64,000 bases of DNA from Hermatobates lingyangjiaoensis. Taxonomy: Eukaryota; Arthropoda; Insecta; Hemiptera; Hermatobatidae. Positions 1,984-60,709 of this stretch are shown piece by piece. Each line of letters begins with the position of its first letter. Within the stretch, counting starts at the first letter, position 1. A program made the position numbers and the translations under genes. The stretch lies in contig JAPFBL010000254.1 in assembly GCA_026182355.1 (NCBI GenBank), forward strand, positions 6,709,501 to 6,773,500, read 5' to 3'. Below the pieces are notes generated by a model. The model made no database searches. It had not been told where the DNA came from and saw only the letters and a list, made by a program, of their open reading frames with translations.

Positions 1984-2241
1984 ACAATAAAATAAAAAAC
2001 GAAGGAAACACACAGAAAGACACAGACATAACTCACATCGATATTTCGACAATCGTCGTCATCAGGAGGTGCGAAGAGTCCCGCAGGAAGACAGGGCGGT
2101 ACTCAGACAGTACAGTACCGCCCTTCTTCCTGCGGGACTCTTCGCTCTTCGCTCTTCGCACCTCCTGATGACGACGATTGTCGAAATATCGATGTGAGTT
2201 ATGTCTGTGTCTTTCTGTGTGTTTCCTTCGTTTTTTATTTT

Positions 2242-2245
<4 letters not shown>
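1984..2245. repeat. Family A fold-back element
   Basis: This is a large inverted repeat. The left arm is 1984-2103, the spacer about 10 bases, and the right arm 2113-2245. The right arm carries an extra short duplication of CGCTCTTC. Each arm contains a hammerhead-type module: minus strand about 2034-2071 and plus strand 2159-2196. The outer ends run into (TA)n (about 1936-1949 and 2246-2288). Diverged family A copies occur at 10297-10384, 10435-10558, 13790-13905 and 26820-27075. A transcript would fold into a hairpin of more than 110 bp. Confidence 0.85.
2159..2196 (+). ncRNA. Hammerhead-type ribozyme motif, family A
   Basis: Order of parts: CACCUC (stem I, 5' strand), CUGAUGA core, an extra C, GAC-GAUU-GUC (stem II), GAA, AUAU (self-complementary stem III), C (cleavage-site base), GAUGUG (stem I, 3' strand, pairing CACCUC with one mismatch). 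Core residues C3-A9 and G12-A14 match the hammerhead consensus except for one extra base before stem II. Stem III would have to form between two molecules or with another copy. A GTGAGT, a 5' splice-site-like string, begins within the 3' stem I strand at 2194. Confidence 0.6.
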
Positions 2246-2296
<51 letters not shown>

Positions 2297-2308
2297 ATAA
2301 AAAAAAAA

Positions 2309-2518
2309 CCAATTGGGTTTTTGACTCTGACGAAGACCGCTTGTTACGGTTGAAAGATCTTAGTCTTGCTTTCCCATTTTCTTATTGTGGTTTGATCATT
2401 GATTTATACTCGTATATGTATATATCAATGATCAAACCACAATAAGAAAATGGGAAAACAAGACTAAAATCTTTCAACCGTAACAAACGGTCTTCGTCAG
2501 AGTCAAAAACCCAACTGG
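2309..2518. repeat. Family C (PLE terminal repeat) fold-back
   Basis: Inverted repeat whose arms both start with CCAA(T/C)TGGG/GTTGGGTTTTTGACTC and meet around a TA-rich centre (about 2405-2425). The arms are the terminal repeat found downstream of the PLE frame at 23741-25092, including TGATCAAACCACAATAAG and the ribozyme module. The outer left flank is a long (TA)n/(GT) tract. Confidence 0.85.
2323..2365 (+). ncRNA. Hammerhead-type ribozyme motif, family C (PLE)
   Basis: GACU (stem I), CUGACGA, an extra A, GACCG-loop-CGGUU (stem II), GAA, AGAUCU (palindromic stem III), U (cleavage-site base), AGUC (stem I, pairing GACU with 4 of 4 bases). All consensus core positions are present. The same module in the opposite arm (2462-2504, minus) has one change in the palindrome. 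Confidence 0.7.
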
Positions 2519-2950
2519 ATATTTAAATACACCCAGACCACTTTAAGGGCTTCTGAGGAAGCCTTCATTTGGTTATCGGGTGCCAGAAATTCCCCTGGTC
2601 TGAAGTTAATCAGATGACTTCCTCTATTTTATTTTTATGATTTATTTTTTTTCAATTTTTAGTTTATTTTATTATGTTAACTGCGTTTTGTTTCATTATA
2701 CTTTCCTTTTAACTCATTTTTTAACTTTCTATAAATATTTTTTTCTTTATTTTTTTCTCACTTTAGCACCCTAGTTAGTTTCTACTTGATTTTTTTCTGC
2801 TGTATTTCCACTATTTTTCAATTCAACCATATTTTGTAATTTTTAATTTATGATTTCTCTTTCTCTTCTTTCTTTTCTCTCTTCCTCCAAGTAAATACGA
2901 CTTTTATTATTTCACTTACTCATAGCTTAAACTGTGAAATGTTATCACAG
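2519..2950. other. T-rich tract next to family C repeat
   Basis: From about 2630 the strand is strongly T-rich with little structure. Similar T-rich blocks sit beside family D' repeats at about 9541-9800, 11460-11740 and 59320-59400, so this may be retroelement untranslated sequence. No coding frame is seen. Confidence 0.35.
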
Positions 2951-4840
2951 TTAAGGTGGCCACCGATGTGAAGGTGGCCTCTGCGAGTCACCTTGTATCG
3001 GTCGGTGGACGCATTCACTTCTTTTACCTATCAAAGTTGAAATATATTTTTGATGAGACAAATCTTCAGAAAAACTCGAAAAATTGATCAAAGAAATATT
3101 TTTTACAACTTTGAATAGGAAAGTTATGTGCGTTATAGGTGTTGGTGCGTTATAGTCAATTATTTCTAATTCTGAGGAGATAAATACCACACAAAGATAA
3201 GATTGTTAATGTAAATAATTATTTGCAATTTTCTGTGCATAAAATAGTTGTATAGCAATCCAGATTTTAATGTCATTTCCTTTCTCTGGTGTGTTTCAAT
3301 ATTTCATGTGTTTCATTCCACCCTATTAAAAGTTTATTTAATTCTTTATTTCAAGATTTCAGTTTAAATAAATTTGTTTAGTGCTGCCTTATTTAATTAA
3401 CTGAATTTTTTTGTCATTTTTAAATTCATACCTTATTACTTTATTATACTCGTAATGATAATGAAAAAAATGAATTTTGAACTTTTCAAAGAATTACACA
3501 TTTCAGTCCATTTTTGAAGTGTTTTTAGATGATGTCTGCATGTGCTTAGATTGGTGGGTATGTATTCAAATATTATTGAACACGTTATATACATTTGATG
3601 AATCAATTGATATTGTTCCTTGGGAAGTCCGCTTTTTTATTGTCTAAAATGTGTTTTGTTCCTGTTTTTTCCTAAACTACTGATGACAGACAGTTGACAT
3701 TTTACTGTAGTTTGAGTAATAACATTAACATTAAGTGAAGAAATTTCAGTATTTTCCAATAAAAGAACAGGTCAGTTTCACGCAACAGTAAAAACTTATG
3801 TCTGAATCTGAAACCTGGTGAACACAATAGTGGTCACACTGTTTGAGAGAGCATAATGAAATTACACAATAAAACCAGTTCTTTATAAGAGGGTAGGTTC
3901 ATAGGTTTTTATCAAAAATGACATCATAGAAAGTGTGCGTTGTAGTTCCTCTTTAAATTCAAGAAAAAAAATTTACCACTAAATTACAAAGAGTAATTAA
4001 AATTGCTGTTGTCATTTATCTAAAGTTAAAATTAAGGTTAATAAAATCATTTAATTAATTGATAATCAATGCTTTCCTATAGAGTCTGACAATCTGTGCA
4101 CACGGTGGTCACATTTAAATGAATCAATTGATTATATTCATTGTCAATAGAGTTAATGATTGTTATAGAAAAAGGGCAAAAAGTTTGTTCCATTGGAAGA
4201 GCAGAATAGCCTTAAAGAAAATTCTACCTTGAATGGGGGCCACCAACTGTACTTTGGGATTTGTTTATATTACCTTAGGTTTTTTGAATCATAATTCAAC
4301 TAATCATTCAATTAATTTAATATTTTTTTTAAAAAAACTTAATGTGCTAAAATTTGATACACTATATAATTATAATTTTGAAATATAAAATATGCTACAA
4401 TCATGGTGAACAATAAATCAGGTAATTGTCATTCTTGGCAGACACCACGATTGTTTCAGCCCGGGGTTTCTTCATATATATCCTACTTTGTTTTAAAAAA
4501 AAATGGAAAAAAACATAGTCATCAGACTGATTTATCAACATGTTCACAATTTTATAATTGACTTTATCACAGTCATTTGTATTAATTAAAGCAGACAAAT
4601 ACCTCAAGGAACAGACCCGAAAACCAAGGAAAATTCACAAATAAAATATATGGTTAATGTTCGCTTGAACGATTGGTTGACTTCTCACTATCAGTCGGAA
4701 GTCCTTGCTTTAACTTCCTCGAGGTCTAAATAAAGGAACGGAACAACACTTGGTAGAAGTACAGTCACCTTCCTTGCGACAACTCGGCGGAATGCAGGCA
4801 TCAGCACAACAGTCCCAGAACGATCTGGCCGATCTCATAA
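2951..4840. other. AT-rich DNA, nothing recognised
   Basis: Small open frames on both strands (for example 2951-3190 minus) have no recognisable domains and look like chance. No repeat family member was recognised. Confidence 0.4.
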
Positions 4841-4842
4841 CA

Positions 4843-4882
4843 ATTCGACCACCAATAACTCTTTTTTATTGGTGGTCGAATA
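4843..4882. repeat. Perfect 15-bp hairpin
   Basis: ATTCGACCACCAATA (4843-4857) is followed after 10 bases by its exact complement TATTGGTGGTCGAAT (4868-4882). It could be a miniature fold-back or part of a transcript. Nothing else nearby explains it. Confidence 0.7.
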
Positions 4883-4899
4883 AAATTCAGTCTCTTCTA

Positions 4900-5655
4900 C
4901 TGACTGTTGTCACCTTGTTTCCATGGAGACCTCCTTCTTTTGCTTTTCTTTTTCACACTTGTTGCCAGTTTGACGATAAAGAAATGAAATATTCTTAAAA
5001 CAATTGGGCATCATGAACCTAGGAATTCGTATCATATGATATGATTTATAACCATGATGTAAGAAATATACTTTGAAGCAACTCAAATTGTTTATTTGTT
5101 TGCATCTTAAAACCAGCATAATCTTTGTTATGTCGCCGTTATAAAGTATTCTCATGGGGAAAATGTTTGGAGATTTTTAGGGGTTTTCACTACCGAGGTT
5201 TTTTCGAGGATTGAAAAATCTATTGTTCATGTTTCCCTCTGTGTGGCTTAAAGGAGAGTTTAATGATAATTGACAGTTCTCTACAAATAGACCCGTCTAA
5301 CAAATCTTAATAATTTGACATTTGACAAGCATTTTGGTTTTTGTGTGGTTAGTTAAGTTTAGTAGTTAAACATCCTTAAACGTACTTTATGTTGAACGGG
5401 TACTAATTTAAATCCTCACTTGTAGTGATTCTATAACACTTAAATTCGTATTAAGTATGAAAATATCATTTATTTATAATATTTGAAGGAGATTATTACA
5501 CTTACAAAGATAACTACTTAGTCAATTTTTAATAATTTAGCAGATTGTTCTATAACAATCATTACATTTTTGTCATAGGATGAAATAAATGAAGTAATTT
5601 ATTTTAATTTTTTATGACTTTGATTATGATTTTATTATCATATACTGATAATAAT
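4900..5655. other. AT-rich DNA, nothing recognised
   Basis: No repeat, RNA or convincing coding segment was seen. Confidence 0.35.
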
Positions 5656-5660
5656 GTATA

Positions 5661-5767
5661 AAAAGATTTCACATAAACACGTGAAACAACAATCAATGAT
5701 CAAACCACAATAAGAAATGGGATCTTAGTCTTGTTTTCCCATTTCTTATTGTGGTTTGATCATTGAT
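5661..5767. repeat. Family C mini fold-back, ribozyme core deleted
   Basis: The arms CAATGATCAAACCACAATAA and its complement flank a short centre (GATCTTAGTCTTG). Only the outer end of the PLE terminal repeat is present, including TTTCACATAAACACGTGAAA at the left. The hammerhead core has been lost between the arms. Confidence 0.8.
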
Positions 5768-5769
5768 AA

Positions 5770-10296: not shown

Positions 10297-10557
10297 TAAT
10301 AAATTCAAAACGAAGGAAACACACAGAAAGACACAGACATAACTCACATCGATATTTCGACCATCGTCGTCATCAGGAGGTGTGTGGAAGCAGAAAGTAA
10401 CTGACAAAAAGAACGGCACTACGCCTGCTAATCACAATTAAAAGAAACGGTCCAGCGGACTTTTTTAAATAAAATAAATTCAAAACGAAGGAAACACACA
10501 GAAAAACACAGACATAACTCACATCAATATTTCGACCATCGTCGTCATCAGGAGGTG

Positions 10558-10594: not shown

Positions 10595-10842
10595 AATTAA
10601 AATGAGCAGAGACACATAAACAGAAACACAACAAAGACTCACTTTTCAATATTTCGACCGTAATGGCGGTCGTCCTCAGGAGAAGAAGTGAATTGACGGA
10701 GGGACGACAGTCAAGTCAGAGTTTACTGTCGTCCCTCCGCCAATTCACTTCTTCTCCTGAGGACGACCGCCATTACGGTCGAAATATTGAAAAGTGAGTC
10801 TTTGTTGTGTTTCTGTTTATGTGTCACTGCTCATTTTAATTG
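10594..10842. repeat. Family B fold-back, full length
   Basis: The left arm (10594-10711) and right arm (10724-10842) are near-perfect complements with a spacer of about 12 bases. Each arm carries the ribozyme module. A one-sided tail, GTCCTGCCGGACCGTTTTTCG, continues to about 10875. It is flanked by (TA)n at 10561-10592 and 10885-10898. Confidence 0.9.
10746..10796 (+). ncRNA. Hammerhead-type ribozyme motif, family B
   Basis: CACUU-internal loop-UC (stem I), CUGAGGA, extra C, GACCG-CCAUUA-CGGUC (stem II), GAA, AUAU (stem III), U (cleavage base), GA-A-AAGUG (stem I; GA pairs UC and AAGUG pairs CACUU). The variable core position 7 is G, which the hammerhead tolerates. A GTGAGT starts at 10794. 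The mirror arm holds the same module on the minus strand (about 10640-10690). Confidence 0.65.
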
Positions 10843-10897: not shown

Positions 10898-11020
10898 TGA
10901 CACTTAAAATAAACAGTGACACATAGATTGAACATAACAAAAGACTCACTTTTTAATATTTCGACCGTAATATCGGTCCTCCTCAGGAGAAGAAGTGAAT
11001 TGACGGAGGGACGACAGCCA
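10898..11020 (-). repeat. Family B single arm, diverged
   Basis: A diverged family B arm (GACTCACTTTTTAATATTTCGACCG through GACGGAGGGACGACAG), cut by (TA)n at both ends. The core is present in complement (TCCTCAGGAG) but stem II has mismatches (ACCGATATTACGGT). Confidence 0.7.
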
Positions 11021-11030: not shown

Positions 11031-11140
11031 CAGTGCGCTTGGTTTCCCTCTCTTATCTCTTCTGAAGACGGTTGAAACCGAAAATTAGAGACTGTAAGTG
11101 TGTTCTTTTGATTTCTCTATGTTTCTTTGTCTATATTGAA
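11031..11140 (+). repeat. Family D repeat, single arm
   Basis: Runs from GTGCGCTTGGTTTCCCTCTC through the core to TTTCTTTGTCTATATTGAAC and is flanked by (TA)n on both sides. Other family D copies: 18586-18860, 30258-30510, 31225-31400 and 32336-32580. Confidence 0.8.
11058..11091 (+). ncRNA. Hammerhead-type ribozyme motif, family D
   Basis: UCUU (stem I), CUGAAGA, C, GGUU-GAA-ACC (stem II), GAA, AAUU (stem III palindrome), A (cleavage base), GAGA (stem I, with one G-U pair). A GTAAGT follows at 11094, three bases after the motif. Confidence 0.55.
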
Positions 11141-11459: not shown

Positions 11460-11935
11460 AGAGATTAGTTTACCTTTGAGTATTATTATTTTCTGATTAT
11501 TATCCTTTCATTTTTATCTTAAATTATTATTTTTACAACTTTATTCCAATCATCCTCATTATTATTATTATTATTTAAGTATCTATTATTCATATTCCTG
11601 GATATTATTTTGTTTCAGCTATTTTCCTCTTTTTTCCTCATTATTATCTTTTAAGTTTTTATTATTTATATTTCCTAATTTTCTTCATTTTCACTTTCTA
11701 TTTCTTAGCTTATTCTTAGTTAATTTCTCTTACCTCACTTAAACGGGGTACGCGTGTGACAACACTGTTGGTCTCCAACCGTCGCTTCACAAGTGCGCTT
11801 GGTGTCAATCCTCAACTCTCCTGATGACGGTTCAACCGAAAATTAGTGACAGTAAGTGTGTTTGTTTCTTAGTTCTGTGTTTGTGATTCATCGTGAAACG
11901 TTTGTTGTCCTTTTGTATCGTTTTCCTGTTTACAA
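11460..11935 (+). repeat. Family D' repeat with T-rich leader
   Basis: T-rich 11460-11740, then ACAACACTGTTGGTCTCCAA, AGTGCGCTTGGTG and a core at 11821: CUGAUGA, C, GGU..ACC, GAA, AAUU, A. A GTAAGTGTG follows. Stem I is only partly paired. The tail ends at (TA)n near 11936. The same architecture appears at 9541-9945 and 59320-59585. Confidence 0.6.
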
Positions 11936-11975: not shown

Positions 11976-12359
11976 AAATTCACACAAGGGGTTCTTGAGG
12001 ATTTTGGTCATAAAACATACAACTCCTGATTATAAGCCGACGTTTCGCCAAAAATTGTTCGGCATTTTCAAGGCTAAAAAACAATTTATTAACGACATAA
12101 GTAAAGCAAGATAAATAAATAATAATAGCACTAGGTATTTTATGATCCTTTGTTGTTCTTTGTTACAAAATTTTTGTTTGTGTTGTTTGTTTTCTGTTGG
12201 GTGGTGTCCGGTCATGTATTTATCTTGCTTTACTTATGTCGTTAATAAATTGTTTTTTAGCCTTGAAAATGCCAAACCATTTTTGGCGAAACGTCGGCTT
12301 ATAATCAGGAGTTGTAATGTTTTATGACCAAAATCCTCAAGAACCCCTTGTGTGAATTT
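11976..12359. repeat. Family H inverted-repeat element
   Basis: The arms 11976-12118 and 12217-12359 are near-perfect complements around about 98 bases of unique sequence. The outer ends (AATTCACACAAGGGG) sit beside (TA)n. The inner half holds a degenerate hammerhead module in each arm. There is no coding capacity. Confidence 0.8.
12259..12299 (+). ncRNA. Degenerate hammerhead-type motif, family H
   Basis: AGCC (stem I), UUGAAAA in place of CUGANGA (two core changes, C3 to U and G8 to A), U, GCCAAA...UUUGGC (stem II), GAA, ACGU (stem III), C, GGCU (stem I, 4 of 4 paired). Both arms share the two core changes, so the master copy of this family was probably already inactive or relies on another activity. 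Confidence 0.45.
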
Positions 12360-12374
12360 ATATATATATATATA

Positions 12375-12560
12375 AAGATTTCACATAAACGTGAAATAAC
12401 AATCAATGATCAAACCACAATAAGAAAATGGGAAAACAAGACTAAGATCTTTCAACCGTAACAAGCGGTCTTTGTCAAAGTCAAAAACCCAACTGAAACA
12501 CTAGATGCAGAGAGCATCTGGTGAGGGGTTGAGAAGAGTGTCAGGAGACTGGAACAGCTT
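12375..12560 (-). repeat. Family C copy with PLE 3' flank, decayed core
   Basis: Begins after (TA)n with TTTCACATAAACGTGAAATA, then TGATCAAACCACAATAAG. The minus-strand core reads CUUUGACAA instead of CUCUGACGA. It continues with CACTAGATGCAGAGAGCATC, the PLE 3' untranslated sequence also seen at 13375 and 23840. Confidence 0.75.
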
Positions 12561-13277: not shown

Positions 13278-13744
13278 ATATCAATGATCAAACCACAATA
13301 AGAAATGGGAAAACAAGACTAAGATCTTTCAACCGTAACAAGCGGTCTTCGTCAGAGTCAAAAACCCAACTGAACACTAGATGCAGAAAACATCTGGTGA
13401 GGAGTTGAGAAGAGTGGGAGGGAAGAGTGTATTTTAAAAAGGGTGAAAGCACAGGAAGGACTAATGTCCAGAAAGGGATGTTTGGGGAAACAAAGGAGTA
13501 CAGTAAGAAAAAGTAAAAAAACTATCCGCTAGCTGTCAACCTCTTTGAAGAGGCTATAGCCCTCGTGACGAAAGTATCAAGTTTGAAGAGACCGTTATAA
13601 TGTTTATAATATTAGTGTTCAGTTGGGTTTTTGACTATGACGAAGACCGCGTGTTACGGTTGAAAGATCTTAGTCTTGTTTTCCCATTTCTTATTGTGGT
13701 TTGATCATATGATTGTTGTTTCACGTGTTTATGTGAAATCTTTT

Positions 13745-13789: not shown

Positions 13790-13905
13790 TAAACCACTCT
13801 GCCTTCCATGCGGGACTCTTCACCTCCTGATGACGACGATGGTCGAAATATAGAAGTGAGTTATTCCTGTGTCTATCTGTGTGCTATCTCCTTTTTAATC
13901 GGTTT
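13790..13905 (+). repeat. Family A variant, single arm
   Basis: GCGGGACTCTTCACCTC, the core, then GTGAGTTATTCCTGTGTC, flanked by (TA)n at 13751-13782 and 13910-13924. Confidence 0.75.
13818..13860 (+). ncRNA. Hammerhead-type ribozyme motif, family A variant
   Basis: CUUCACCUC (stem I), CUGAUGA, C, GAC-GAUG-GUC (stem II), GAA, AUAU, A (cleavage base), GAAGUGAG (stem I; pairs CUUCACCUC with one mismatch and one wobble). This is the longest stem I of the family A copies. GTGAGT lies within its 3' strand. Confidence 0.6.
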
Positions 13906-13963: not shown

Positions 13964-14245
13964 TATTAAAGAGTATGCAGCATATATATTAAAGAGTTTT
14001 ATACTAATCGTCATATTGTAAATCTCTGAAGATGGTCAAAGTGACCGAAACGTTGGAATAATTTAATGTATAGTTTTTTTTGTAGCTAGGTTTAGAGTGT
14101 ATTATTGGATTACTACTATGGAGCTCTAGAATAAATCATTCGGAGAGTTAGTGTTCAATTTACCTGAAGAGTTAAAAACAAGCTTAGAAAACTTGAGAAA
14201 TTAAATAAAAAACGAACAAAAATGAAGATCGGCATACTCTTTAAT
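13964..14245 (+). repeat. Family F element with terminal inverted repeats
   Basis: ATTAAAGAGTATGC (13965-13978) is complementary to GCATACTCTTTAAT (14232-14245). Between them lie a hammerhead-type motif and AT-rich sequence. The left flank GGGAGCAGA is shared with family G. It is followed by an ATATATAAT tandem tract to about 14285. Confidence 0.65.
14023..14057 (+). ncRNA. Hammerhead-type ribozyme motif, family F
   Basis: UCU (stem I), CUGAAGA, U, GGUCA-AAG-UGACC (stem II, 5 of 5), GAA, ACGU (stem III palindrome), U (cleavage base), GGA (stem I with a G-U pair). The core is fully consensus. No splice-donor string follows, unlike families A, B and D. Confidence 0.6.
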
Positions 14246-18585: not shown

Positions 18586-18860
18586 TATATACACTTTTTC
18601 GTTGGAAATACGATCCAAAACAGACAAATATAGTACAATATAGACAAAGAAACATAGAGAAATCAAAAGAACACACTTACAGTCAGTAATTTTCGGTTTG
18701 AACCGTCTTCAGGAGAAATAAGGGAGGGAAACCAAGTGCACTGGTTCAGAGACGGTTGGGTCTAACCGTCTCCAACCATCTCTGAACCAGTGCACTTGGT
18801 TTCCTCCCTCCCTCTATCGTTCTACCAAATTGAAGACGGTTTCAATATTCCTGTTTTTTA
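18586..18860. repeat. Family D fold-back
   Basis: The left part (CACTTTTTCGTTGGAAATAC through AGGGAAACCAAGTGCACTGG) meets a partial inverted copy from about 18756 (GGTTCAGAGACGG...CAACCATCTCTGAACC) and GCACTTGGTTTCC. A ribozyme core lies on the minus strand at about 18690-18716, with stem II and GAA AAUU intact but the GAGA strand of stem I changed. Confidence 0.75.
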
Positions 18861-22304: not shown

Positions 22305-22444
22305 CTCCACACAAAAAATTCTATGCAGACACGTTTCAAACATTTAGTGTTCATGCTGTGATTTCATCTGCTTACTAATGCAAAAGTAACCTGATGATGA
22401 ACACTAAGTGTTTGAAATGCATCGTTAATAAAATCTTTTGTGTG
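22305..22444. repeat. Family I inverted-repeat element
   Basis: CACACAAAAAATTCTATGCA on the left and the complementary AAAATCTTTTGTGTGAA end on the right bracket a hammerhead-type motif. The left arm holds a decayed complement (CGTTTCAAACATTTAGTGTTC). It shares the stem II sequence GAACAC/GTGTTY with family J at 60505-60709, so the two are probably related. Confidence 0.7.
22387..22427 (+). ncRNA. Hammerhead-type ribozyme motif, family I
   Basis: UAAC (stem I), CUGAUGA, U, GAACAC-UAA-GUGUUU (stem II, 6 bp with one G-U), GAA, AUGCAU (stem III palindrome), C (cleavage base), GUUA (stem I, 4 of 4). All core residues match. Confidence 0.65.
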
Positions 22445-23166: not shown

Positions 23167-23615
23167 ATATTAGAAATAGGTAAAACCGTCATCCCTCGTA
23201 AGATGATCATGGAGTCGTTGGAGCGCTTTCGGACGTTGTCCTTCTTCGACTGCAAAAACCTACTGAGCTGTTATATAGGTGATTGGTTATCTATCAAGTC
23301 CACTGCTATCCTGATATTATTATTTTGATTTTATTTAGTTATTTTGATTTTTAGTTTTTATCTATTATCTAGTTTGTTTTTTTTATTTTTTATATATTTT
23401 TTAATTAAAATATAAAAAAACCCAAAGTAGATAACAACTAAAAACTAAAAATCAAAATAATATTATCAGGATAGCAGTGGACTTGACAGATAACCAACCC
23501 CCTATATAGCAGCTAAGTAGGTTTGTTGCGGTCGAAGATGGACAACGTCCGAAAGCGCTCCAACGACTCCATGATCATCTTACGAGGGATGACGGTTTTA
23601 CCTATTTCTAATATA
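23167..23615. repeat. Family K inverted-repeat element
   Basis: Long arms (about 23167-23385 and 23416-23615) are complements with few mismatches around a short AT-rich centre. The outer ends are ATATTAGAAATAGGTAAAAC and its complement. Each arm contains a hammerhead-like module with an altered core. No coding sequence. Confidence 0.85.
23525..23564 (+). ncRNA. Hammerhead-like motif with altered core, family K
   Basis: GUUG (stem I), CGG spacer, UCGAAGA where CUGANGA is expected, U, GGAC-AAC-GUCC (stem II), GAA, AGCGCU (stem III palindrome), C, CAAC (stem I, 4 of 4). All three stems are intact but C3-U4 are replaced. The opposite arm has the same change. Confidence 0.45.
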
Positions 23616-23740: not shown

Positions 23741-25092
23741 ATGATCAAACCACAATAAGAAATGGGAAAACAAGACTAAGATCTTTCAACCGTAACAAGC
23801 GGTCTTCGTCAGAGTCAAAAACCCAACTGAACACTAGATGCAGAAAACATCTGGTGAGGAGTTGAGAAGAGTGGGAGGGAAGAGTGGTATTTTAAAAGGG
23901 TGAAAGCACAGGAAAGGACTAATGTCCAGAAAGGGATGTTTGGGGAAACAAAGGAGTACAGTAAGAAAAAGTAAAAAACTATCCGCTAGCTGTCAACCCT
24001 CTTTGAAGAGGCTATTGCCCTCGTGACAAAAGTATCAAGTTTGAAGAGACCGTTACTAATGTTTATAATATTAGATCTATTAAATTTAATTAGAGACGAT
24101 TCAATAATATTTCTTAACAACATTGATTTTTCATAGGTAATAAATTTAGCTCCTGTCCAATAAATATGATGATTTTCATTTTTTATATGCAAGAATAAGG
24201 CACTACTGTTTTCCTGTCTACTTACGTTATATTGGTGTTGTTTTACACGTGTTTTTAATGATTTACCAGTTTGACCAATATAAATTTTATGGCAATTTTT
24301 GCACGGAATTTTATAAATACCAGCGGACTCCAATTCGCTTGGAGAGTTTTTTATTAACATATTACCCACGTTATTACGATTAGAAAACACTATATTAAAA
24401 TCAAGTTGTTTGGCTAATCTTGGAAGGGGGTCCAATGATTCGTGGTATGGCAAAACTATAGAATTTGATAATAAAAGGGGCTCTTTTGAAGTATTAGAGA
24501 AAGTTTTTTTAGCACCCTTCAAAGCTAAATCGATATAAGAAGAGGGGTATTTTAATGAAAGGGCAATTGACCTAATGTTATTAATCTCTTCATTAAGAAA
24601 TTCTGGAGAGGAAACTCTTAAGGCTCTCAAAAACATATTTCTAAAAACAGAAATTTTAACATTTTTTGGATGCGATGAATAAAAATGAACGTATGCAAGT
24701 ACATTCGTAGGTTTTCTATATACACTAAAGCGTAACTCATTAGGTAACCTATGGATCAGGACATCTAAGAAGGGCAAATTACCACTTATTTCTTCTTCCA
24801 TTGTGAATTTGATTGTCGGCACTAATGAATTCAATTTTGTTAGGAAATCAACTTTATTTAAAGAATTGGGACAAATGCAAAGAATATCGTCAACATATCT
24901 ATACCATTTAACATTTTTGGGCAAAATTGAGCTTAACATTTTACTCTCAAAAAACTCCATATATAAATTACTTAGGAGGGGGGATAAACAGTTACCCATA
25001 GCAAGACCAAATTTTTGTATATAATAATTATTTTCAAATTGAAAATGACAATCACGGAAAAATTTCACGTGTTTATGTGAAATCGTTTTACC
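23741..25092 (-). mobile_element. 5'-truncated Penelope-like element, family C
   Basis: Sense is the minus strand. From 5' to 3': a short inverted piece of the terminal repeat (about 25060-25092), the C-terminal half of the PLE protein (23986-about 25065), 3' untranslated sequence with CTGGTGAGGAGTTGAGAAGA (complement), the ribozyme-bearing terminal repeat (23741-23830), then TATATA. The 5' truncation, the inverted terminal fragment at the 5' end and insertion in TA-rich DNA are all typical of Penelope elements. A near-identical 3' end at 13278-13612 points to recent activity. Confidence 0.9.
23774..23816 (-). ncRNA. Hammerhead-type ribozyme motif in PLE terminal repeat
   Basis: Same intact module as at 2323-2365 and 13317-13359: GACU, CUGACGA, A, GACCG...CGGUU, GAA, AGAUCU, U, AGUC. 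It lies in sense orientation downstream of the PLE stop codon. This physically links the motif to the element. Confidence 0.75.
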
Positions 25093-25206
25093 ACTATATA
25101 TATATATGACTGTCCTTGTGTTTAGATTGTGGGAAGTAGAGTGAATGGGAGCTGATGTTCTGTGATTATTCATATTATGTCTTAACATTGTAGTTACTAT
25201 ACCCAC
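23986..25206 (-). CDS. PLE polyprotein, C-terminal part: reverse transcriptase (partial) and GIY-YIG endonuclease
   Basis: Residue numbers count from the first ATG of the 406-codon open frame; the PLE-derived part starts near residue 48, and the first 47 come from flank and inverted repeat. The reverse transcriptase part has motif B-like GLAMGNCLSPLLSN (67-80), the catalytic YVDD (104-107) and the following region with LPFLDVLIHR (144-153). Motif A and its aspartate are missing because of truncation, so the enzyme cannot be active. A GIY-YIG domain follows: GIY (296-298), CxxC (302-305), YIG (309-311), TR (319-320) and IIES with the likely catalytic Glu (369). The frame has no internal stop, so the copy is young. 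A full PLE protein would be about twice this length. Confidence 0.92.
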   Translation of the reverse strand: MGIVTTMLRHNMNNHRTSAPIHSTSHNLNTRTVIYIYSGKTISHKHVKFFRDCHFQFENNYYIQKFGLAMGNCLSPLLSNLYMEFFESKMLSSILPKNVKWYRYVDDILCICPNSLNKVDFLTKLNSLVPTIKFTMEEEISGNLPFLDVLIHRLPNELRFSVYRKPTNVLAYVHFYSSHPKNVKISVFRNMFLRALRVSSPEFLNEEINNIRSIALSLKYPSSYIDLALKGAKKTFSNTSKEPLLLSNSIVLPYHESLDPLPRLAKQLDFNIVFSNRNNVGNMLIKNSPSELESAGIYKIPCKNCHKIYIGQTGKSLKTRVKQHQYNVSRQENSSALFLHIKNENHHIYWTGAKFITYEKSMLLRNIIESSLIKFNRSNIINISNGLFKLDTFVTRAIASSKRVDS

Positions 25207-26554: not shown

Positions 26555-26768
26555 TATATCAATGATCAAACCACAATAAGAAATGGGAAAACAAGACTAA
26601 GATCTTTCAACCGTAACAAGCGGTCTTCGTCAGAGTCAAACTTAGCTACTTTTAATATTCTCTTCCTTGGACTGTATAAAATCATCCTTGGACATGATCT
26701 TAGTCTTGTTTTCCCATTTCTTATTGTGGTTTGATTATTGATTGTTATTTCACGTGTTTATGTGAAAT

Positions 26769-26772
<4 letters not shown>
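26555..26772. repeat. Family C fold-back
   Basis: ATCAATGATCAAACCACAAT at the left is mirrored by ATTGTGGTTTGATTATTGAT at the right. Between them is one ribozyme module and an unrelated insert (about 26638-26695) with CTTAGCTACTTTTAATATTC, which nearly repeats 26407-26440 (CTTAGCTCCTTTTAATATTC). It is flanked by (TA)n. Confidence 0.85.
26595..26637 (-). ncRNA. Hammerhead-type ribozyme motif, family C
   Basis: An intact minus-strand copy with all positions as in the PLE-linked module (GACU/AGUC stem I, AGAUCU stem III). The right arm keeps only GATCTTAGTC and has lost the core. Confidence 0.65.

Positions 26773-26818
<46 letters not shown>
26773..26818. repeat. (TA)n microsatellite
   Basis: About 22 TA units separating a family C fold-back from a family A fold-back. 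Confidence 0.95.
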
Positions 26819-26821: not shown

Positions 26822-27075
26822 CAACTAAAACAAACGGTCCAGCGGACTTTTTTAAATAAAATAAATTCAAAACGAAGGAAACACACAGAAAAACACAGAC
26901 ATAACTCACATCGATATTTCAACCATCGTCGTCATCAGGAGGTGTGAAGAGCGAAGAGTCTCGCAGGAAGGGTTCTCCGCCCTGCTTCCCTGAGGAACTC
27001 ATCGCTTCCTGATGACTACAGTTGTCGAGATATAAAAGTGGGTTATGTCTATACCTATTTTGGTGTTACTTTCAT
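26820..27075. repeat. Family A fold-back, diverged
   Basis: The left arm has AACGGTCCAGCGGACTTTTT and a minus-strand module at 26907-26943 with one stem II change (GUUGAAAUAU). The right arm (about 26970-27075) is much more diverged (CTTCCTGATGACTACAGTTGTCG). Confidence 0.7.
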
Positions 27076-29847: not shown

Positions 29848-29972
29848 ATATAGACCCCTACGTTTAGGGCGGCGTAGACCCCTACGTGTTGGGCGCCATA
29901 TACCCCTATGTATTGGGTGCCATGTAGACCCCTACATGTTGTATGACGTAGACCCCTACTTGTAGGGTGACC
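29848..29972 (+). repeat. Minisatellite, about five 24-26-bp units
   Basis: Diverged tandem units built on GTAGACCCCTACGTGTTGGG, starting near 29848, 29874, 29900, 29924 and 29948. Within a unit TAGACCCCTA is conserved while the second half (GTTGGGCGCC) varies. Each unit has a small TAGACCCCTACNNGTAGGG-type dyad. Confidence 0.85.
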
Positions 29973-30257: not shown

Positions 30258-30510
30258 TATATATATACACTTTTTTGTTGGAAATACGATCCAAAACGGA
30301 CAAATATAGTTCAATATAGACAAAGAAACATAGAGAAATCAAAAGAACACACTTACAGTTTCTAATTTTTGGTTTGAACCGTCTTCAGGAGAGATAAGAG
30401 AGGGCACTAGTTCAGAGACGGTTGGAGACCGTCGGTTCAAACCGAAAATTAGTGACTGTAAGTGTGTTCTTTTGATTTCTCTATGTTTCTTTGTCTATAT
30501 TGAACTATAT
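30258..30510. repeat. Family D fold-back
   Basis: The left arm CACTTTTTTGTTGGAAATAC through GGCACTAGTTCAGAGACGG turns back at about 30425 into CGGTTCAAACCGAAAATTAG...GTCTATATTGAAC, ending in (TA)n. The minus-strand core in the left arm has one change in GAA (CAAAAAUU). The right arm lacks CUGAAGA. Confidence 0.8.
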
Positions 30511-31224: not shown

Positions 31225-31400
31225 ACGTCTCTGTATCAGTGCGCTTGGTTTCCCTTTCTTATCTCTCCTGAAGACGGTTCAACCGAAAATTAGAGACTGT
31301 AAGTGTGTGTTTTTAATTTCTCTACGTTTCTTTATGTACATTGAACTGTATTTGTCCATTCGGATCGTATTTTCATCAAAAAAGTGTATATATATATATA
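31225..31400 (+). repeat. Family D insertion within the Helitron
   Basis: CAGTGCGCTTGGTTTCCCTT through GTATTTTCATCAAAAAAGTG, followed by (TA)n to about 31421. It interrupts the Helitron, which itself interrupts a PLE, giving an order of insertion. Confidence 0.8.
31264..31296 (+). ncRNA. Hammerhead-type ribozyme motif, family D
   Basis: UCUC (stem I), CUGAAGA, C, GGU-UCA-ACC (stem II), GAA, AAUU, A (cleavage base), GAGA (stem I, 4 of 4). GTAAGTGTG follows at once after CU. Confidence 0.65.
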
Positions 31401-31808: not shown

Positions 31809-32174
31809 TATAGGATACCTTGTACTGATTGCCAAATGTCTTATATTGGACAGACGAGTAAAGATCTCTTTACAAGAGTGAAACGACACCAATATTCGAT
31901 CAGACGGGAAGATGAAAAGAGTGCCTTGTTCTTACATGTAAGGAACAAAAATCATATGATAAATTGGAGTGAACCAAAGGAATTGGTTTTTGTACCTTCG
32001 GAAAGGAGGAGAAATATTATTGAAAGTGCACTCATAAAGAACTTCTATGGAAATTTAATGAATAATAGTCCGGGACTTTACAAACTAGATGAAATATTAA
32101 TAAAAGAAATAAGTAAATATATCAAGACTCCTTCAAGATTAGGAACATTCAGGCAGGGATGCCAGCAATCTTGA
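31809..32174 (+). CDS. PLE GIY-YIG endonuclease domain, C-terminal remnant
   Basis: The frame is open from TAT at 31809 and begins YRIPCTDC, inside the GIY motif. It continues SYIGQT (YIG), TRVKRHQYS, SALFLHVRNKNH and RRNIIESALI (probable catalytic Glu), ending SRLGTFRQGCQQS. It aligns throughout with residues 298-395 of the PLE frame at 23986-25206. The reverse transcriptase is missing, cut off by AT-rich sequence and the Helitron. An internal ATG occurs at 31836. Confidence 0.88.
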   Translation, partial: YRIPCTDCQMSYIGQTSKDLFTRVKRHQYSIRREDEKSALFLHVRNKNHMINWSEPKELVFVPSERRRNIIESALIKNFYGNLMNNSPGLYKLDEILIKEISKYIKTPSRLGTFRQGCQQS

Positions 32175-32344: not shown

Positions 32345-32577
32345 CAATATAAACAAAGAAACATAGAGAAATCAAAAGAACACACTTACAGTCTCTAATT
32401 TTCTGTTTGAACCGTCTTCAGGAGAGATAAGAGAGATAATTAAGTTTCCCTCTCTTATCTCTCCTGAAGACGGTTCAAACCGAAAATTAGAGACTGTAAG
32501 TGTGTTCTTTTGATTTCTCTATGTTTCTTTGTTTATATTGAACTATATTTGTCCGTTTTGGATCGTATTTCCAACGA

Positions 32578-44704: not shown

Positions 44705-45292
44705 GTGGAATCATGTACTGGGAATAACCATGCTGAAATAGAAATGGTGATTAAGAAAGAGATTTGCATCCTGGAGTCAAGAATATCTAGACCTAAGAAG
44801 AGTCTCTCTAATAATATAAACTTTAATGTGGTAGTTCTCAATAGAAAGCAATGGGAAGATACAGAGATTACATTGCGGACAGACGAACTTGTATGCTTCA
44901 CTCACGGCTCAAAGGTTGGTGAAGAGGGACGTGCTGTCACGGGAATATTTATCAATGGGCTAAATATAGAGGTAAGCCTTCCACTCGGATTTCACGCCAC
45001 GATCTTCCAGGCAGAAGGTTTTGTCATTTTGACGGCAGCCAAACTGCAGGAAGTGTGGGAGGGGCGGGGGGCTGAGCGGAGCATTTCAATATGCTCAGAT
45101 AATCAGGTGGCTATAAAAGCGTTAATGTCTTCGCCACCTTCTTCTGTACTTGTCCAGGAGTGTCAGGAGACACTAAATGAACTAGCCATTATCAAGTCAG
45201 TTAGATTGATATGGGTTCCGGGACATAGTGACGTTTCGGGCAACGAAAAGGCTGATATACTAGCCATATCGTTTCTGAAATGCCCTTTGTAG
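44705..45292 (+). pseudogene. LINE RNase H domain
   Basis: An open stretch of 195 codons. RNase H motifs: LVCFTHGSK (62-70; consensus FTDGSK, so the first catalytic Asp is His 67), FQAEGFVIL (Glu 104), CSDNQVAIKAL (Asp 132) and IWVPGHSDVSGNEKADILA (His 174, Asp 184). Loss of the first Asp predicts no activity. The frame shifts at about 45280 into the C-terminal tail. The ATG at 44705 is not the natural start, since the homologous protein continues upstream in other frames. Confidence 0.85.
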
Positions 45293-48326: not shown

Positions 48327-48434
48327 ACTGTGACACATAGATAGAAACATAACAAAGACTCACTTTTCAATATTTCGACCGTAATGGCGGTTGTCCTCAG
48401 GAGAAGTGAATTGACGGAGGGACGACAGTCAACT
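48327..48434 (-). repeat. Family B single arm
   Basis: TGTGACACATAGATAGAAAC through GACGGAGGGACGACAGTCAA, cut by (TA)n on both sides. The minus-strand module at 48361-48408 keeps CUGAGGA and GAA AUAU but has one stem II change (ACAACCGCC). Confidence 0.8.
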
Positions 48435-48454: not shown

Positions 48455-48600
48455 AATTTTCAAAAGAACTCACAGAAGTGAAATCATGAAACTCACTACT
48501 ATATTTCGATGGCCTCGTCATCAGGAAGATGAAAGTAAGTTTCAGTGATTCCATTTCTGTGTGTTCTTTTGAAAATTTTAGTTTATTCAGTTCGAAGAAT
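48455..48600. repeat. Family L fold-back
   Basis: ATTTTCAAAAGAACTCACAG (from about 48457) and CTGTGTGTTCTTTTGAAAAT (ending about 48578) form the arms, with GAAACTCAC/GTAAGTTTC further in. A ribozyme-like module lies in the loop region. It adjoins (TA)n on the left. Confidence 0.8.
48496..48528 (-). ncRNA. Hammerhead-type motif, family L
   Basis: CUUC (stem I), CUGAUGA, C, GAGGCCAUC (short stem II), GAA, AUAU, A (cleavage base), GUAG (stem I, 3 of 4). A GTGAGT follows the cleavage-site base, as in families A and B. Confidence 0.5.
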
Positions 48601-56255: not shown

Positions 56256-57020
56256 ACTTTACTATAAGTAAAGTATAGTGATAGTGAAAAAATTCGATCT
56301 CGAGATTTTGAGGAATTACATGTTTTGAGGTCCCAGAAGTCGTTTTATTAAGTTTTTTCGATAATGTTCTGTGTGTGTGTGTGGGTGGGTGAGTGTGTTA
56401 GCATTGCTTGTTACCACGCTACGGTCCAGAATCTTTGATGGATCAAGTTGATATTTTACAAAAAAATGGGCCCCATAGAGAAGAAGATCCCTATTGTTTT
56501 GGAAGAATTATGCATGATGGGAAAGTCACTTTTTTTTCCAAAAACCGTTTTTTAGAAAACATTTATTTCTCCTAAACTGATAACCCTAGAGTTTTGAAAA
56601 TTTGACATTATCTTTGAGGTTACAAATGTAACAAACAAAAAATATATTCATAATTTTAAAACAACAGAAAATATTTTTTTCATAAAATGTATAATTTTGA
56701 CTTATAATTCAATCCCAAAGCTTGTGAGAGCGATACAAGCCATACGGTTGACGGATCAAAATGAAATTATGCCTAAAAATAGAACATTATGTGGAGAATG
56801 AGTTGAGATATTTTTTTTCAAAATTACATTCACTAAAGGGGCGTTACAGTACGATTTCTCTTTTCAGAAAATTTTTTTTGACCCTAAACGGCTCATTAAA
56901 AAATAATTAAAATTTGACCAAAAATGGAACAAAAAATTAGCAATTCACAAAAAAAAATCATGAAGTTTCAATTACGGGAAAGAGCAATAACGAATAAACT
57001 GTAGTTTATCTAGATTAAGA
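56256..57020 (+). repeat. Repeat M, copy 2
   Basis: Same start palindrome, then GAAAAAATTCGATCTCGAGA, TACATGTTTTGAGGTCC, TTTTTTCGATAATG, a (GT)n tract, TTGATGGATCAAGTTGA and a tail with AAAATTAGCAATTCAC. It lies about 570 bp after copy 1 in the same orientation. Confidence 0.65.
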
Positions 57021-57024
57021 GATC

Positions 57025-58205
57025 ACCTGCTATACTGTCGAATTTTTTATATTTTTTTACATTGTTTACATTGACTTAGAAATTTTTTGAGCGAATCCAC
57101 TGAGATAAAATTGATATTTATAAAGGAACAATTTAAATTGTTTATTGACTTATAAGAGATGTAAGAAGGAATAATATTGTGCAGGAAAATAATAACACTC
57201 ACTCAGAAAAAATTCGTATATATGTTATTTGACAAAAGGGAAGGAAAATGATTTTATTAAATACTAAGAAGCCATAAAATTCCCAGTATAATAATTATAT
57301 AAAAAACCAAAAATGTAAAAGATAATTCAAAATTGAAATCTTTCGTTTAGAGATTAATAAATGTAATTATCGTACATATTTACTTATAAATCATCTTAAA
57401 ACAACATTATGAGGTTTTTCAGAGAAAAAAAAGGGTATTTTCCTGTTTTAAATTTGAAAATTTTACTTTAATATTCAATGTAGAAGGATGTCAAGTAAAC
57501 GATGTAAGAAATCCACTGGCTATTTGAACAAAAGCCATGTTCTCTTGTAGGAGAATATTTCGTATCAAGAAATGTTCACTTTGGTTTTTCAAAAATGTTA
57601 TTACTGCTGTAGTTATACTAATGAAATTATTTGCATCAGCTGTGTGATGTACAAAAATAAGCTTATATATTGATATGTCCTTCAATCACTATCTGTACTA
57701 CCTCAGGAATGAAAGACTAATAATCATATCCCATTTAGATGTTTACGTTATGTGTTATATACTCAAGAAATTTGATATTAAGTTACTTATTGTAAAGTTG
57801 AGTGTAGGCCACTCCAGATTTTTTTGTTATTATTATTGCTTGACTTGCTTAAGGATATGACTGTTAAAGACAGGTAAAATAAAATAAAAGTCAGGGAGTA
57901 CCGACATATAATAAATGATGAGGTATTGAATTGTAGTTATGTATGACGTCAATGTAGCCATTAAGAAATTCGATAGTTTTATTTTTCTCTGATAAAAAAA
58001 AAAGGAAGATAAACCCCTTTACTTATTAATTCTGTGGGATATATGAAAATGAGACATTTGAAAGAGGGGATTTTAAACAGGTTTTAAATTGTTGTATTGC
58101 ATCATTATGGTGGAAACCCACCTGCTATGGACTGGGCGTAATTACTCCCCCACCAAGATCTGCTGGGCCAGCGTGACGTAAAACGTCTTTTACAATTGAC
58201 TCTGA
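57025..58205. other. AT-rich DNA, possible intron
   Basis: Mostly AT-rich. From about 58110 it becomes GC-richer, leading to the exon candidate. A second frame there (RDVKRLLQLTLSEDGSFW...) is also open for about 28 codons after an acceptor-like GGGCCAG at about 58170. Confidence 0.3.
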
Positions 58206-58210
58206 GTGAG

Positions 58211-58368
58211 GACGGTTCGTTTTGGTCAGAACTCTTCGCATTAATAATCCTCATCCATCATTAGTCGTGCGGAGTGATAGTTCAAGATTGATTCTCCCGG
58301 TCAGCAAGTCACATATGAGGATGTTGAATGAGCGAATAACACCTCAGGATGATTCCATTATGCAAGTG
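58211..58368 (+). CDS. Candidate 158-nt coding exon, protein not identified
   Basis: After an acceptor AG at 58209-58210 and two phase bases the frame is open for 52 codons, beginning RFVLVRTLRINNPHPSLVV, with SRLILPVSKSHMRM and ending TPQDDSIMQV, followed by donor GTGAGT at 58369. It ends in phase 0 and joins 61187-61245 in frame. It does not join 54298-54460 in phase, so an exon would be missing or the start differs. The overlapping alternative frame upstream leaves the true start uncertain. Confidence 0.4.
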
Positions 58369-58664
58369 GTGAGTACTCAAACATTTGTATTCACTTTAAA
58401 CAAACTCTATTTAATTCGTTCTTAATGATTATTTCTGGATATAAAAGTAGAAGACAGTTAAACTTGAATTACAGGTAAATGATTCATGAATTATTTAATT
58501 AACATCTTGTTGAACTGAACTTCGAATTATGATTATGCCTATTAGTAGTGATATGGATGAATGTTAAATACCTGTGTTGTGCTGTTATTGCTTAACTAGA
58601 ACCTAATAATTTGTTGTATTGAATGAATACACATCTAGATTATATATATAATTACGTATATGTA

Positions 58665-59010
58665 TATACATGATTTCACATAAACTCGTGAAACAACAAT
58701 CAGTTATCAAACCACAATATGAAATGGGGAAAAAAAGACTAAAATCTTTCAACCGTAACAAGCGGTCTTCCCAACTGCTGGGTTGGGTTTTTAACTCTGA
58801 CGAATACGCTTGTTACGGCTGAAAGATCTTGTCTTTCTTTCCCTTTTCATATTGTGTTGTGGTTTGATCATATTAATGATCAAACCACAATATTAAATAG
58901 GAAAACATGGCTAAGTTCATTCAACCGTAACAAGCGGTCTTCGTCAGAGTCAAAAACCCATTTCATATTGTGGTTTGATCATTGATTGTTATTCCACGTG
59001 TTTATGTGAA
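58665..59010. repeat. Family C multi-copy fold-back
   Basis: Three alternating, partly truncated family C units: minus (58672-58770), plus (58780-58873) and minus (58876-58960), followed by an outer end (TTGTGGTTTGATCATTGATT...CACGTGTTTATGTGAAA). The cores are damaged in each (for example GAC...CTGACGAATACGC). It is flanked by (TA)n at about 59015-59033. Confidence 0.75.
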
Positions 59011-59214
59011 ATATTTATATATATATATATATTCTTCAAAGTAGTAGCCCCACTTGGAAGGGAGTTTATTGTAAAATTTGCACATGCTCTATGTATATTA
59101 CATATATATATATTTTTATATATATATAATGTATTTAATCTATCCATAAACATAAACAGTTAGTTAAAAATAAACCTTTAGTATTTATTATTTTCACTCA
59201 TATAATAAATACTA

Positions 59215-59300
59215 CATATAATAATATGTATATTATACATAGTTATACTATAATTATAATTATAACTATACATAATTATATTATACATATAATAATCACT
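59215..59300. repeat. AT-rich palindromic tract
   Basis: TATGTATATTATACATAG, ACTATAATTATAATTATA and further ATTATATTATACATATAA segments form overlapping dyads. Confidence 0.6.
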
Positions 59301-59319
59301 TCATATAGTGCTATATTAA

Positions 59320-59585
59320 TTATGATTTTATTATTCAGTCTTTCACTTCCTTCGCTTATTCTTAGTTTATTTTCTTACTTCTCTTGAACTTTTTACTACA
59401 CTCTTGTTCTCCAAAGCGCCGCTTCGTAAGTGCGCTTGGTGTTCCTATCTCTTCTCTCCTAATGACGGTTAAACTGAAAATTACATACTGAAATTGTTTT
59501 TATTATTTATTGTGTACCTATGTTTACTCTGAAATGTTTGTTGTCCTTTGAGCATCGTTTTCTTGGTGATGATATAGACATATAT
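59320..59585 (+). repeat. Family D' repeat
   Basis: T-rich leader, GCGCCGCTTCGTAAGTGCGC, TTGGTGTTCC, then a decayed core (CUAAUGA, GGUU..AACU, GAAAAUU) and the tail GAAATGTTTGTTGTCCTTTG, as at 11885-11920. Confidence 0.6.
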
Positions 59586-59589
59586 AGCC

Positions 59590-60500
59590 TTCTTCTTTCG
59601 TTAATTCAGATTAGTTCTTCACTCTTTTTAATATGGTTTTTTCTCCTGACAATAGATGATGGACAAATAATTCAGAATGTTAATTTCATTTAAATTTGCT
59701 ATTTCTTTGGAAATATGCTTAACATGTTAATTATACATACCTACATAAATGAAATAACTTAATAGTTCTAATCTTTTTCATGTATATTGACTGTTAACGC
59801 GAAATGTTGAAATAACTATATACATGTGTAAACATAGCTAATACTATTACTTGTAGATATTTATCACATATGAATAGCTAAGCTACTGAAATGAAGTTAT
59901 ATCCATGGTGTAGGCAGGTGAAATTGAATTGACTCAGTGACTCTTACATTCGGCTCTTTATTACTGCAAAGAAGGCTATAAAAACTTATGTATCCCATTG
60001 GCAGAATGACCTCTGTCCTAATATCAAATATTCCATGGATCTCAGCTCCCTGAGAAGATTCAGGGTTGACATAGACCTATATTGCTCTACTCGGAGACTT
60101 CCTTGGTCTGTTGTTCACTGCCTTGTTTCTTATAAGCAAACACAAGTGTTTCCACTAGTCTTCAGTCACATCGCATTGTCTTAGTAACCACGAAAAGAAG
60201 TATAGTAATGCTCTTACAATAGACCTCATGAACATGATGTTTATATTTACAAGAAGATACTTATGCAGTGAAAGCAAATTTGCAAAATCAAATAAAAGTT
60301 CTCTTTGACTGGAAGAATTACAAATTAGCAATGTATTGAAGCAATATTTTTACATTTAAGATAATTAATTACTAATAAACTGGTAAAAATAGATTTGATT
60401 CAGTTAGTAATATAATTGAGAAATATTAACCTGTGTAAATTGAACTGAATAATTGTTAGCAAAATTGAAATGAAATATTGTTGGGTAAAAAACTGATGAA
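59590..60500. other. Unannotated, nothing recognised
   Basis: A GC-richer stretch at about 59930-60170 has short open pieces but no consistent frame or splice pair. Confidence 0.3.
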
Positions 60501-60504
60501 ATGG

Positions 60505-60709
60505 TCTCCACATATAAAAATTTAATGGTATAAACAACGCGTTTCGAACACGTAGTGTTCTTCCTCAGGCATTAACTAAGGGTGAGTATCTGTGGTAGAA
60601 CTGTGAGTATCAGTTCTACTACAGATACTCACCCTTAGTTAATGCCTGAGGAAGAACACTACGTATTCGAAACGCGTTGTTTATACCATTAAATTTTTAT
60701 ATGTGGAGG
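60505..60709. repeat. Family J perfect inverted-repeat element
   Basis: The arms (60505-60603 and 60609-60709) are almost exact complements with a spacer of only a few bases. The ends are TCTCCACATATAAAAATTTA and its complement. Each arm contains a complete ribozyme module. High arm identity suggests recent formation or gene conversion. Confidence 0.92.
60640..60683 (+). ncRNA. Hammerhead-type ribozyme motif, family J
   Basis: UAAUGC (stem I), CUGAGGA, A, GAACAC-UAC-GUAUUC (stem II; GUGUUC in the other arm), GAA, ACGCGU (stem III palindrome), U (cleavage base), GUUUA (stem I, 5 bp with a bulged U and one G-U). The minus-strand copy in the left arm (about 60533-60575) has the fully paired stem II. 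Confidence 0.65.

Follow-up and report, generated by a model that had tools for sequence, protein, structure and literature searches.

Minimal hammerhead ribozymes were reportedly described by Cervera and de la Pena in 2014 in the pseudo-long terminal repeats (pseudo-LTRs) of Penelope-like elements (PLEs), and a 2017 paper by Lunse, Weinberg and Breaker is reported to concern PLE hammerheads that cleave as dimers. PMC7761336 and PMC6155905 deal with minimal type I hammerheads located in the pseudo-LTRs of PLEs, and double hammerheads are described for viroid, newt and PLE RNAs (PMC6155905, PMC6466107). According to a section of PMC6466107 in which PLEs are named, double hammerheads need both a palindromic sequence and a tandem arrangement. 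Here we describe families of hammerhead-like repeats in a 64,000-nucleotide stretch of the genome of the hemipteran Hermatobates lingyangjiaoensis (assembly GCA_026182355.1, contig JAPFBL010000254.1, positions 6,709,501 to 6,773,500, forward strand; the window). Their anatomy, the covariation of stem II and of the palindrome that stands in for stem III, their copy number and the position of two families, C and D, beside Penelope coding remnants could be established directly. We consider it likely that the repeats belong to several Penelope-like retrotransposons and their short non-coding derivatives, and that they are minimal type I hammerheads that would cleave as double hammerheads.

The window was searched with a strict scan for an exact CTGANGA followed, after zero to three further bases, by a stem II with 3 or more perfect pairs and then by GAA, the palindrome not being required. 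It returned 25 sites. In 24 of them a single extra base separates CTGANGA from stem II, in one there are two such bases, and no site has zero; the count of 24 in the one-base class compares with a mean of 0.17 in 60 dinucleotide shuffles. CTGANGA and GAA hold by design of the scan, and the independent evidence lies in what follows them. A perfect palindrome beginning with A and ending with T comes after GAA in 22 of the 24 one-base sites (4 nt in 15 and 6 nt in seven), compared with two palindromic sites among about 61 of all spacings in the shuffles, and G is never found at H17, which is T, C or A throughout the 24. The two one-base sites without a palindrome (2500- and 58947-) are both damaged copies of family C. 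A hammerhead pattern matched 44 times in the window (shuffle mean, 3.62), and a scan for the whole grammar, tolerating one core mismatch, found 47 copies in the 264 kb made up of the window and 200 kb sampled from the same contig, versus none in the reversed sequence. The motifs therefore carry the type I hammerhead core (CUGANGA, GAA, A15.1-U16.1 and a non-G H17). The common hammerhead layout that a preliminary description had read from this DNA is borne out, as is its statement that H17 is never G in undamaged copies, with G seen in one copy outside the window (L008, position 6321). Site 14164+, considered as a further family, was rejected, its stem needing two extra bases and its palindrome being absent, and is taken as chance.

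The number of families in one window had been put forward as noteworthy. The families are many, but their number partly reflects local density: the window, with a GC content of about 31%, holds 24 one-base sites in 64 kb, compared with 20 (or 22 when the loop may be longer) in the 200 kb sampled from its contig and seven in 30 kb of three other contigs. Outside the window the count is 27 one-base sites in the 230 kb sampled, versus three in the reversed control. A very rough extrapolation to the 910 Mb assembly gives on the order of 100,000 one-base motifs.

Covariation of the stems, which the preliminary description had set in advance as one test of its proposal, was found in stem II and in the palindrome, the two elements that the counts cover. 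The palindrome differs between families yet remains self-complementary (AATT, ATAT, ACGT, AGCT, AGATCT, ATGCAT, ACGCGT, ACATGT and ACCGGT). For stem II, the class with C at core position 3 and G at position 8 was sought genome-wide with the pattern CTGANGAN{10,22}GAAACGTY, which gave 16,268 matches compared with 130 in the control. In the first 100 of these matches (contigs C1 to C4), one extra base gives the best stem II of 3 bp or more in 84 rows, another spacing does so in three, and 13 have no such stem; counted as distinct sequences, 28 of 43 pair with one extra base. Pair 2 of these 28 is TA in nine, GC in three, AT in 15 and CG in one, and pair 4 is CG in three, AT in seven, TA in eight, GC in eight and GT in one, so that all four Watson-Crick types are present at both pairs; being drawn only from pairing sequences, these counts show the variety of pairs and not the rate of pairing.

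A second core class combines U at position 3 with A at 8; sought with the tail GAAACGTY, it gave 7,160 genome matches (519 in the control), and the C3/A8 class gave 1,120 (183 in the control). These three of the four classes, all but U3/G8, are the basis for the covariation of the two positions, and the genome-wide counts concern the palindromic tail GAAACGTY. Stem II forms with one extra base in 36 of 63 distinct U3/A8 sequences, copied by eye from the 100 places listed, and with another spacing in three; the other 24 lack it. Since these 36 include unrelated stems (GCCA/TGGC, GGTC/GACC, GATC/GATC, GGTT/AACC and GTCA/TGAC), the U3/A8 class is more than scattered decay. In the 317.5 kb examined for both core positions together with a palindrome, the combinations at 3 and 8 are C/G in 54 motifs, A/A in six, T/G in three, T/A in three and four others once each; the reversed sequence holds two palindromic motifs. 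The window itself has the U3/A8 core in family G, and both changes occur in one copy of family C (12478-). A U3-A8 core was set aside as a novelty, the natural covariation from C3-G8 to U3-A8 having been reported in 2011 (PMC3088659, section 8).

In the canonical hammerhead core, stem II begins directly after A9, and measured against it the single base in the grammar of the preliminary description is an insertion. None of the 25 window sites lacks an extra base at this point. After one inserted base, the first pair of stem II is G-C or G-U in all 28 distinct one-base sequences of the C3/G8 class and in 34 of the 36 of the U3/A8 class, the remaining two having A-U. A 10.1-11.1 pair is named in PMC3088659, and one or two inserted bases at the start of stem II are tolerated in hammerheads according to PMC10085705.

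The link to Penelope elements, also raised in the preliminary description, is upheld for families C and D by their position. A Penelope-like frame fragment at 23986-25206 on the minus strand, found by domain, protein and genome searches, comprises the end of a reverse transcriptase (RT; RVT_1, PF00078, 29.8 bits with a cut-off of 29.6) and a GIY-YIG endonuclease (PF01541, 21.6 bits, just below the cut-off of 22.6). It matches 237 database proteins; among the 120 listed, most are nameless, a few are called "hypothetical protein", one is a GIY-YIG protein from a cyanobacterial metagenome-assembled genome and one belongs to the crayfish Cherax quadricarinatus. A family C motif (23774-23816, minus strand; strict scan and element mapping) lies about 175 bp past the stop of this frame. 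A second remnant, the GIY-YIG end at 31818-32150 (plus strand; comparison and mapping), matches the first with 49.5% identity across 99 residues and is flanked by family D copies on the same strand, 31268 upstream (31264-31296) and 32464 downstream (32460-32493), both from the strict scan and element mapping. The tail of a third remnant (13531-13596) adjoins a family C motif on the same strand (13317-13359, minus; strict scan and repeat comparison). Elsewhere, locus L001 has a PLE remnant followed at 1.2 kb, on the same strand, by an AGCT copy, and L009 has one followed at 2.6 kb by a family C copy; around the remnant in L016 no palindromic motif lies within 3.5 kb. With families A, B, F, G, I, J, K and L no coding frame was observed. 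Families C and D belong to PLEs by position, and the common layout suggests the same for the remaining families.

A genome search with the family C frame, in which scoring was limited to the 102 best among 35,696 candidates and older copies are thus invisible, gave 99 matches without an internal stop; these best 102 are 98-99% identical except for the window itself and the copies on contigs C25 (93%) and C482 (92%). The genome therefore has at least about a hundred near-identical family C coding copies. In locus L025 such copies form a tandem: the family C cores, at 2159 and 4806, share one strand and enclose an open frame of 638 codons, and a 700-bp direct repeat, 99.6% identical, flanks the frame (1569-2268 and 4217-4915); from the motif to the open frame that follows it is about 560 bp. 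A frame with RT and GIY-YIG between terminal repeats, the organization that defines a PLE, is present, and the motif sits in the PLE terminal repeat in families C and D. Locus L024 holds a 4.4-kb inverted repeat, 99.5% identical, in which two coding frames stand head to head, each with a family C motif past its stop. It is the one examined among fourteen head-to-head pairs of Penelope frames that are nearly identical (contigs C304, C8, C115, C29, C463, C5, C15, C187, C38, C501, C84, C62, C127 and C25), with 1.2 to 5.1 kb from start to start. A short inverted repeat around TTTCACATAAACACGTGAAA is found inside the Penelope coding frame (25060-25085) and beside family C repeats (5654-5717, 12364-12427, 26713-26788, 58661-58724 and 58957-59032).

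The palindromes of the window are ATAT in families A, B and L, AGATCT in C, AATT in D, ACGT in F and G, ATGCAT in I, ACGCGT in J and AGCGCT in K; the sampled loci add AGCT, ACATGT and ACCGGT, the ACCGGT copies having T at core position 3. All palindromes named in the preliminary description are present, but its list of families needs qualifying. Its family H, for which we take a further ACGT copy at 12994-, is badly damaged, the cores of G and K are altered, and stem II of L has only 2 bp. An intact core together with a stem II of at least 3 bp is found in seven families (A, B, C, D, F, I and J).

The individual copies come from the strict scan unless another source is named. Family A lies at 2034-2071 (minus) and, head to head with it, at 2159-2196 (plus; also pair analysis), both recovered by the whole-grammar scan as well; at 10345-10382 (10376-) and 10520-10557 (10551-), a tandem pair on the minus strand 175 bp apart, also from the pair analysis; and at 13821-13858 (plus) and 26907-26944 (minus). 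Family B has motifs at 10642-10685 (minus), head to head with 10751-10794 (plus; also pair analysis), and at 10949-10992 (minus; part of stem I lost), with a further copy at 48363-48406 (48400-) that has a damaged stem II, lies outside the strict scan and came from pattern matches. The remaining family C copies are at 2323-2365 (plus; also whole-grammar scan), 2462-2504 (2500-; palindrome damaged to AGATTT), 26595-26637 (minus) and 58909-58951 (58947-; palindrome lost), and the core survey added 12440-12482 (12478-; palindrome AGATCT, T at core position 3 and A at 8) and 13633-13675 (13637+; A at core position 3). Family D is also present at 11058-11091 and 11817-11849 (both plus) and 18683-18716 (minus; stem I damaged), all three also found by the whole-grammar scan, at 30359-30392 (30388-; AAA in place of GAA; core survey) and at 32392-32425 (32421-; stem II damaged; pattern matches and pair analysis). 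Both scans found family F at 14023-14057 (plus), family I at 22387-22427 (plus) and family J at 60534-60570 (minus), head to head with 60644-60680 (plus; also pair analysis). The core survey identified family G at 12035-12075 (12071-) and, head to head, 12259-12299 (12263+), both with the U3/A8 core, and family K at 23218-23253 (23249-) and 23528-23563 (23532+), with two departures from CTGANGA in each arm. Family L, at 48497-48527 (minus), came from the whole-grammar scan. A repeat family in the sampled loci has the core ATGAAAA, a stem II of GGTTTT type and the palindrome ACGT (L002 7890+, L010 3669-, L017 7445+ and 7284-, L026 5956+ and 5772-); the same core change is present in all six motifs with the layout retained, twice in close opposite-strand pairs, and the core is possibly U3-A8 plus one inserted base. 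Other features of the window are an RNase H open frame (PF00075) at 44705-45292, probably from another retrotransposon, and a tandem array at 29850-29971 with units of about 24-50 bp and a GC-rich consensus.

What is the mechanism by which such a motif could act? The unit consists of stem I, CUGANGA (or UUGANAA), one unpaired base, the stem II hairpin, GAA, the loopless palindrome, H17 and the second strand of stem I. A stem III is expected only where two sense copies meet and their palindromes pair; each core would borrow H17 and the second strand of stem I from its partner, and the resulting double hammerhead would be cut after H17. Tandem PLE copies would put two sense motifs on one RNA and may allow the release of unit-length RNA, which for family C would measure about 2.65 kb. 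The layout would predict that copies pair, that they cleave and that this serves to process tandem transcripts, and the need for two copies is suggested by analogy with published relatives. The preliminary description had held that stem III cannot close within one molecule. This is strictly so for 4-nt palindromes, but a 6-nt palindrome could close the one pair A15.1-U16.1 over a tetraloop, and a single pair closed in this way is described for an axolotl hammerhead in PMC7229834. The cost of such closure is 5.5 to 6.8 kcal/mol in families C, I and J, so the claim holds in practice for the 6-nt palindromes of these three families. In a nearest-neighbor estimate, which takes contiguous stem I pairs up to the first mismatch and ignores loop and tertiary contacts as well as the lower entropy cost in cis, the two-strand double hammerhead is favored over two monomers by -2.6 (C), -5.7 (I) and -6.7 kcal/mol (J).

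Several results weigh against the double-hammerhead reading. By the same estimate the 4-nt palindromes of families A, B and D come out at +2.2 to +2.8 kcal/mol and F is hardly favored (-0.3), and the lowest-energy fold of a single motif differs from the plain hammerhead in all seven families. Arrangement is a further difficulty. In a survey of all the sequence examined, covering copies within four mismatches of twelve typed signatures, same-family neighbors within 700 bp are head to head in 15 of 20 pairs, tail to tail in three and tandem in two, and one of the two tandem pairs was supplied by the three of 26 loci (L024-L026) that had been picked for PLE frames. The proposal in the preliminary description that the two arms could be dimer partners is not supported: the arms lie on opposite strands and therefore cannot supply two sense ribozymes, and a transcript of a head-to-head pair would carry one sense and one antisense copy, able to pair and compete. 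Element ends were considered as marks of the cleavage site, and the repeat comparison found no repeat copy that starts exactly at the predicted cut; the nearest, two family C pieces (5721+ and 26696+), start 6 nt before it, inside the palindrome. Many copies in the window are damaged. The strict scan also returns three one-base and two zero-base sites in the reversed 200 kb and one two-base site in the reversed window, with none in the reversed 30 kb of the three other contigs. For the lizard PLE, PMC11167929 reports that the ribozyme is dispensable for insertion in vitro, that unprocessed RNA is the main template, and that RNA ends at the cut site were not found in public data. Finally, the Rfam models, offered in the preliminary description as a check, gave no hammerhead in the window at the gathering threshold (0 matches) or at E 10, where the 39 matches were mostly of microRNA type; RF00163 had no match in the whole genome, and 14 control genomes were equally empty, hence this is no evidence of absence. 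The models are probably silent because of the inserted base and the missing stem III. Our confidence in double hammerheads of PLEs is slightly reduced because the single-motif folds and the restriction of the frame search to the best 102 candidates weaken two of its supports.

An alternative explanation, which we regard as unlikely, is that the motifs are dead relics, the hammerhead having been used by ancestral elements and being carried now as passive cargo in non-coding repeats. Damaged copies are frequent (30388-, 12478-, 13637+, 2500-, 58947-, 32421- and 48400-), the core is altered in every copy seen of some families (K, and the ATGAAAA family in L002, L010, L017 and L026), and the in vitro dispensability of the lizard ribozyme (PMC11167929) would fit as well. 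Against it stand the family C coding copies, with stop-free frames in 99 of the best 102 matches, most of them 98-99% identical; core and stem II letters are common to most exact-core family C copies, and changes in stem II are compensated between families.

It is also conceivable, though quite doubtful, that the loopless palindrome acts as a counting or kin-recognition device that permits a cut only where two sense copies of the same family meet, since the stem III of each family would pair with none but its own kind. Cleavage would then read out tandem or multimeric transcripts and leave single copies intact, the families would diverge in palindrome and stem I and so avoid mutual cutting, and the U3-A8 lineage would run beside the classical one. 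That ATAT or ACGT is common to several families counts against this idea.

Some of the motifs could instead be non-coding tandem retrozymes that make small RNA circles, which seems very unlikely to us. Animal retrozymes are tandem non-coding units of 170-400 bp, and what was observed is one family A tandem pair with a spacing of 175 bp, within the size range given in PMC7229834; but just two of the 20 close pairs are tandem, and families C and D adjoin Penelope coding remnants. Two family B arms at 1772-1884 stand head to head and are joined through stem II itself (1817-1834), each arm starting at the base after CTGANGA with the stem II hairpin as the shared center. This junction suggests that inverted copies arise by fold-back synthesis rather than by ribozyme cleavage. 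The predominance of head-to-head copies (15 of 20) and the family B junction at 1817-1834 might also suggest features acting in DNA (endonuclease or strand-transfer sites, or self-priming hairpins) whose likeness to a hammerhead is secondary, but this is hardly credible, for a role in DNA leaves unexplained both why CTGANGA, GAA, A15.1, U16.1 and an H17 other than G are retained and why positions 3 and 8 change together.

As probable minimal type I hammerheads of PLEs, which may cleave as double hammerheads, these families stand close to several described systems. PLE hammerheads are likewise minimal and of type I, sit in pseudo-LTRs, have a missing or minimal stem III and are said to act as dimers (PMC7761336, PMC6155905, PMC6466107). 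The element PAc of the lizard Anolis, as portrayed in PMC11167929, shares the RT and GIY-YIG frame, the pseudo-LTRs and the hammerhead; its hammerhead overlaps the start of the frame, whereas that of family C lies beyond the stop of one frame and well before the next. The repeat-type hammerheads of Aedes and others in PMC3088659 are alike in their palindromic stem III, dimer model and U3-A8 covariation, but the Aedes example has a looped stem III able to form a 10-bp dimer stem, whereas here it is 4 or 6 nt and loopless. The legend of Fig. S8 in that paper (Perreault et al. 2011) already gives a palindromic stem III or loop III with a dimer model, and the palindromic stem III, which the preliminary description had thought worth a closer look, is not new. 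The satellite or retrozyme hammerheads of newt and axolotl also have a weak stem III, which in one group is reduced to one pair closing a palindromic tetraloop, and are more efficient as dimers, yet they form tandem repeats of 330-350 bp with loop-loop contacts, whereas our close pairs are mostly head to head (PMC7229834). Many families per genome are known as well, since the same source reports over 6,000 type I motifs, belonging to 16 families, from a coral genome. The kind of ribozyme is already described, and this genome is a rich new instance of it: a very large natural set of minimal hammerheads with matched palindromes, covarying stems and two core classes, which could be used to test dimer-dependent cleavage and the avoidance of cross-pairing among coexisting families, together with a PLE family of about a hundred near-identical open copies, tandem and inverted, that is useful for studying the role of the ribozyme in PLEs.

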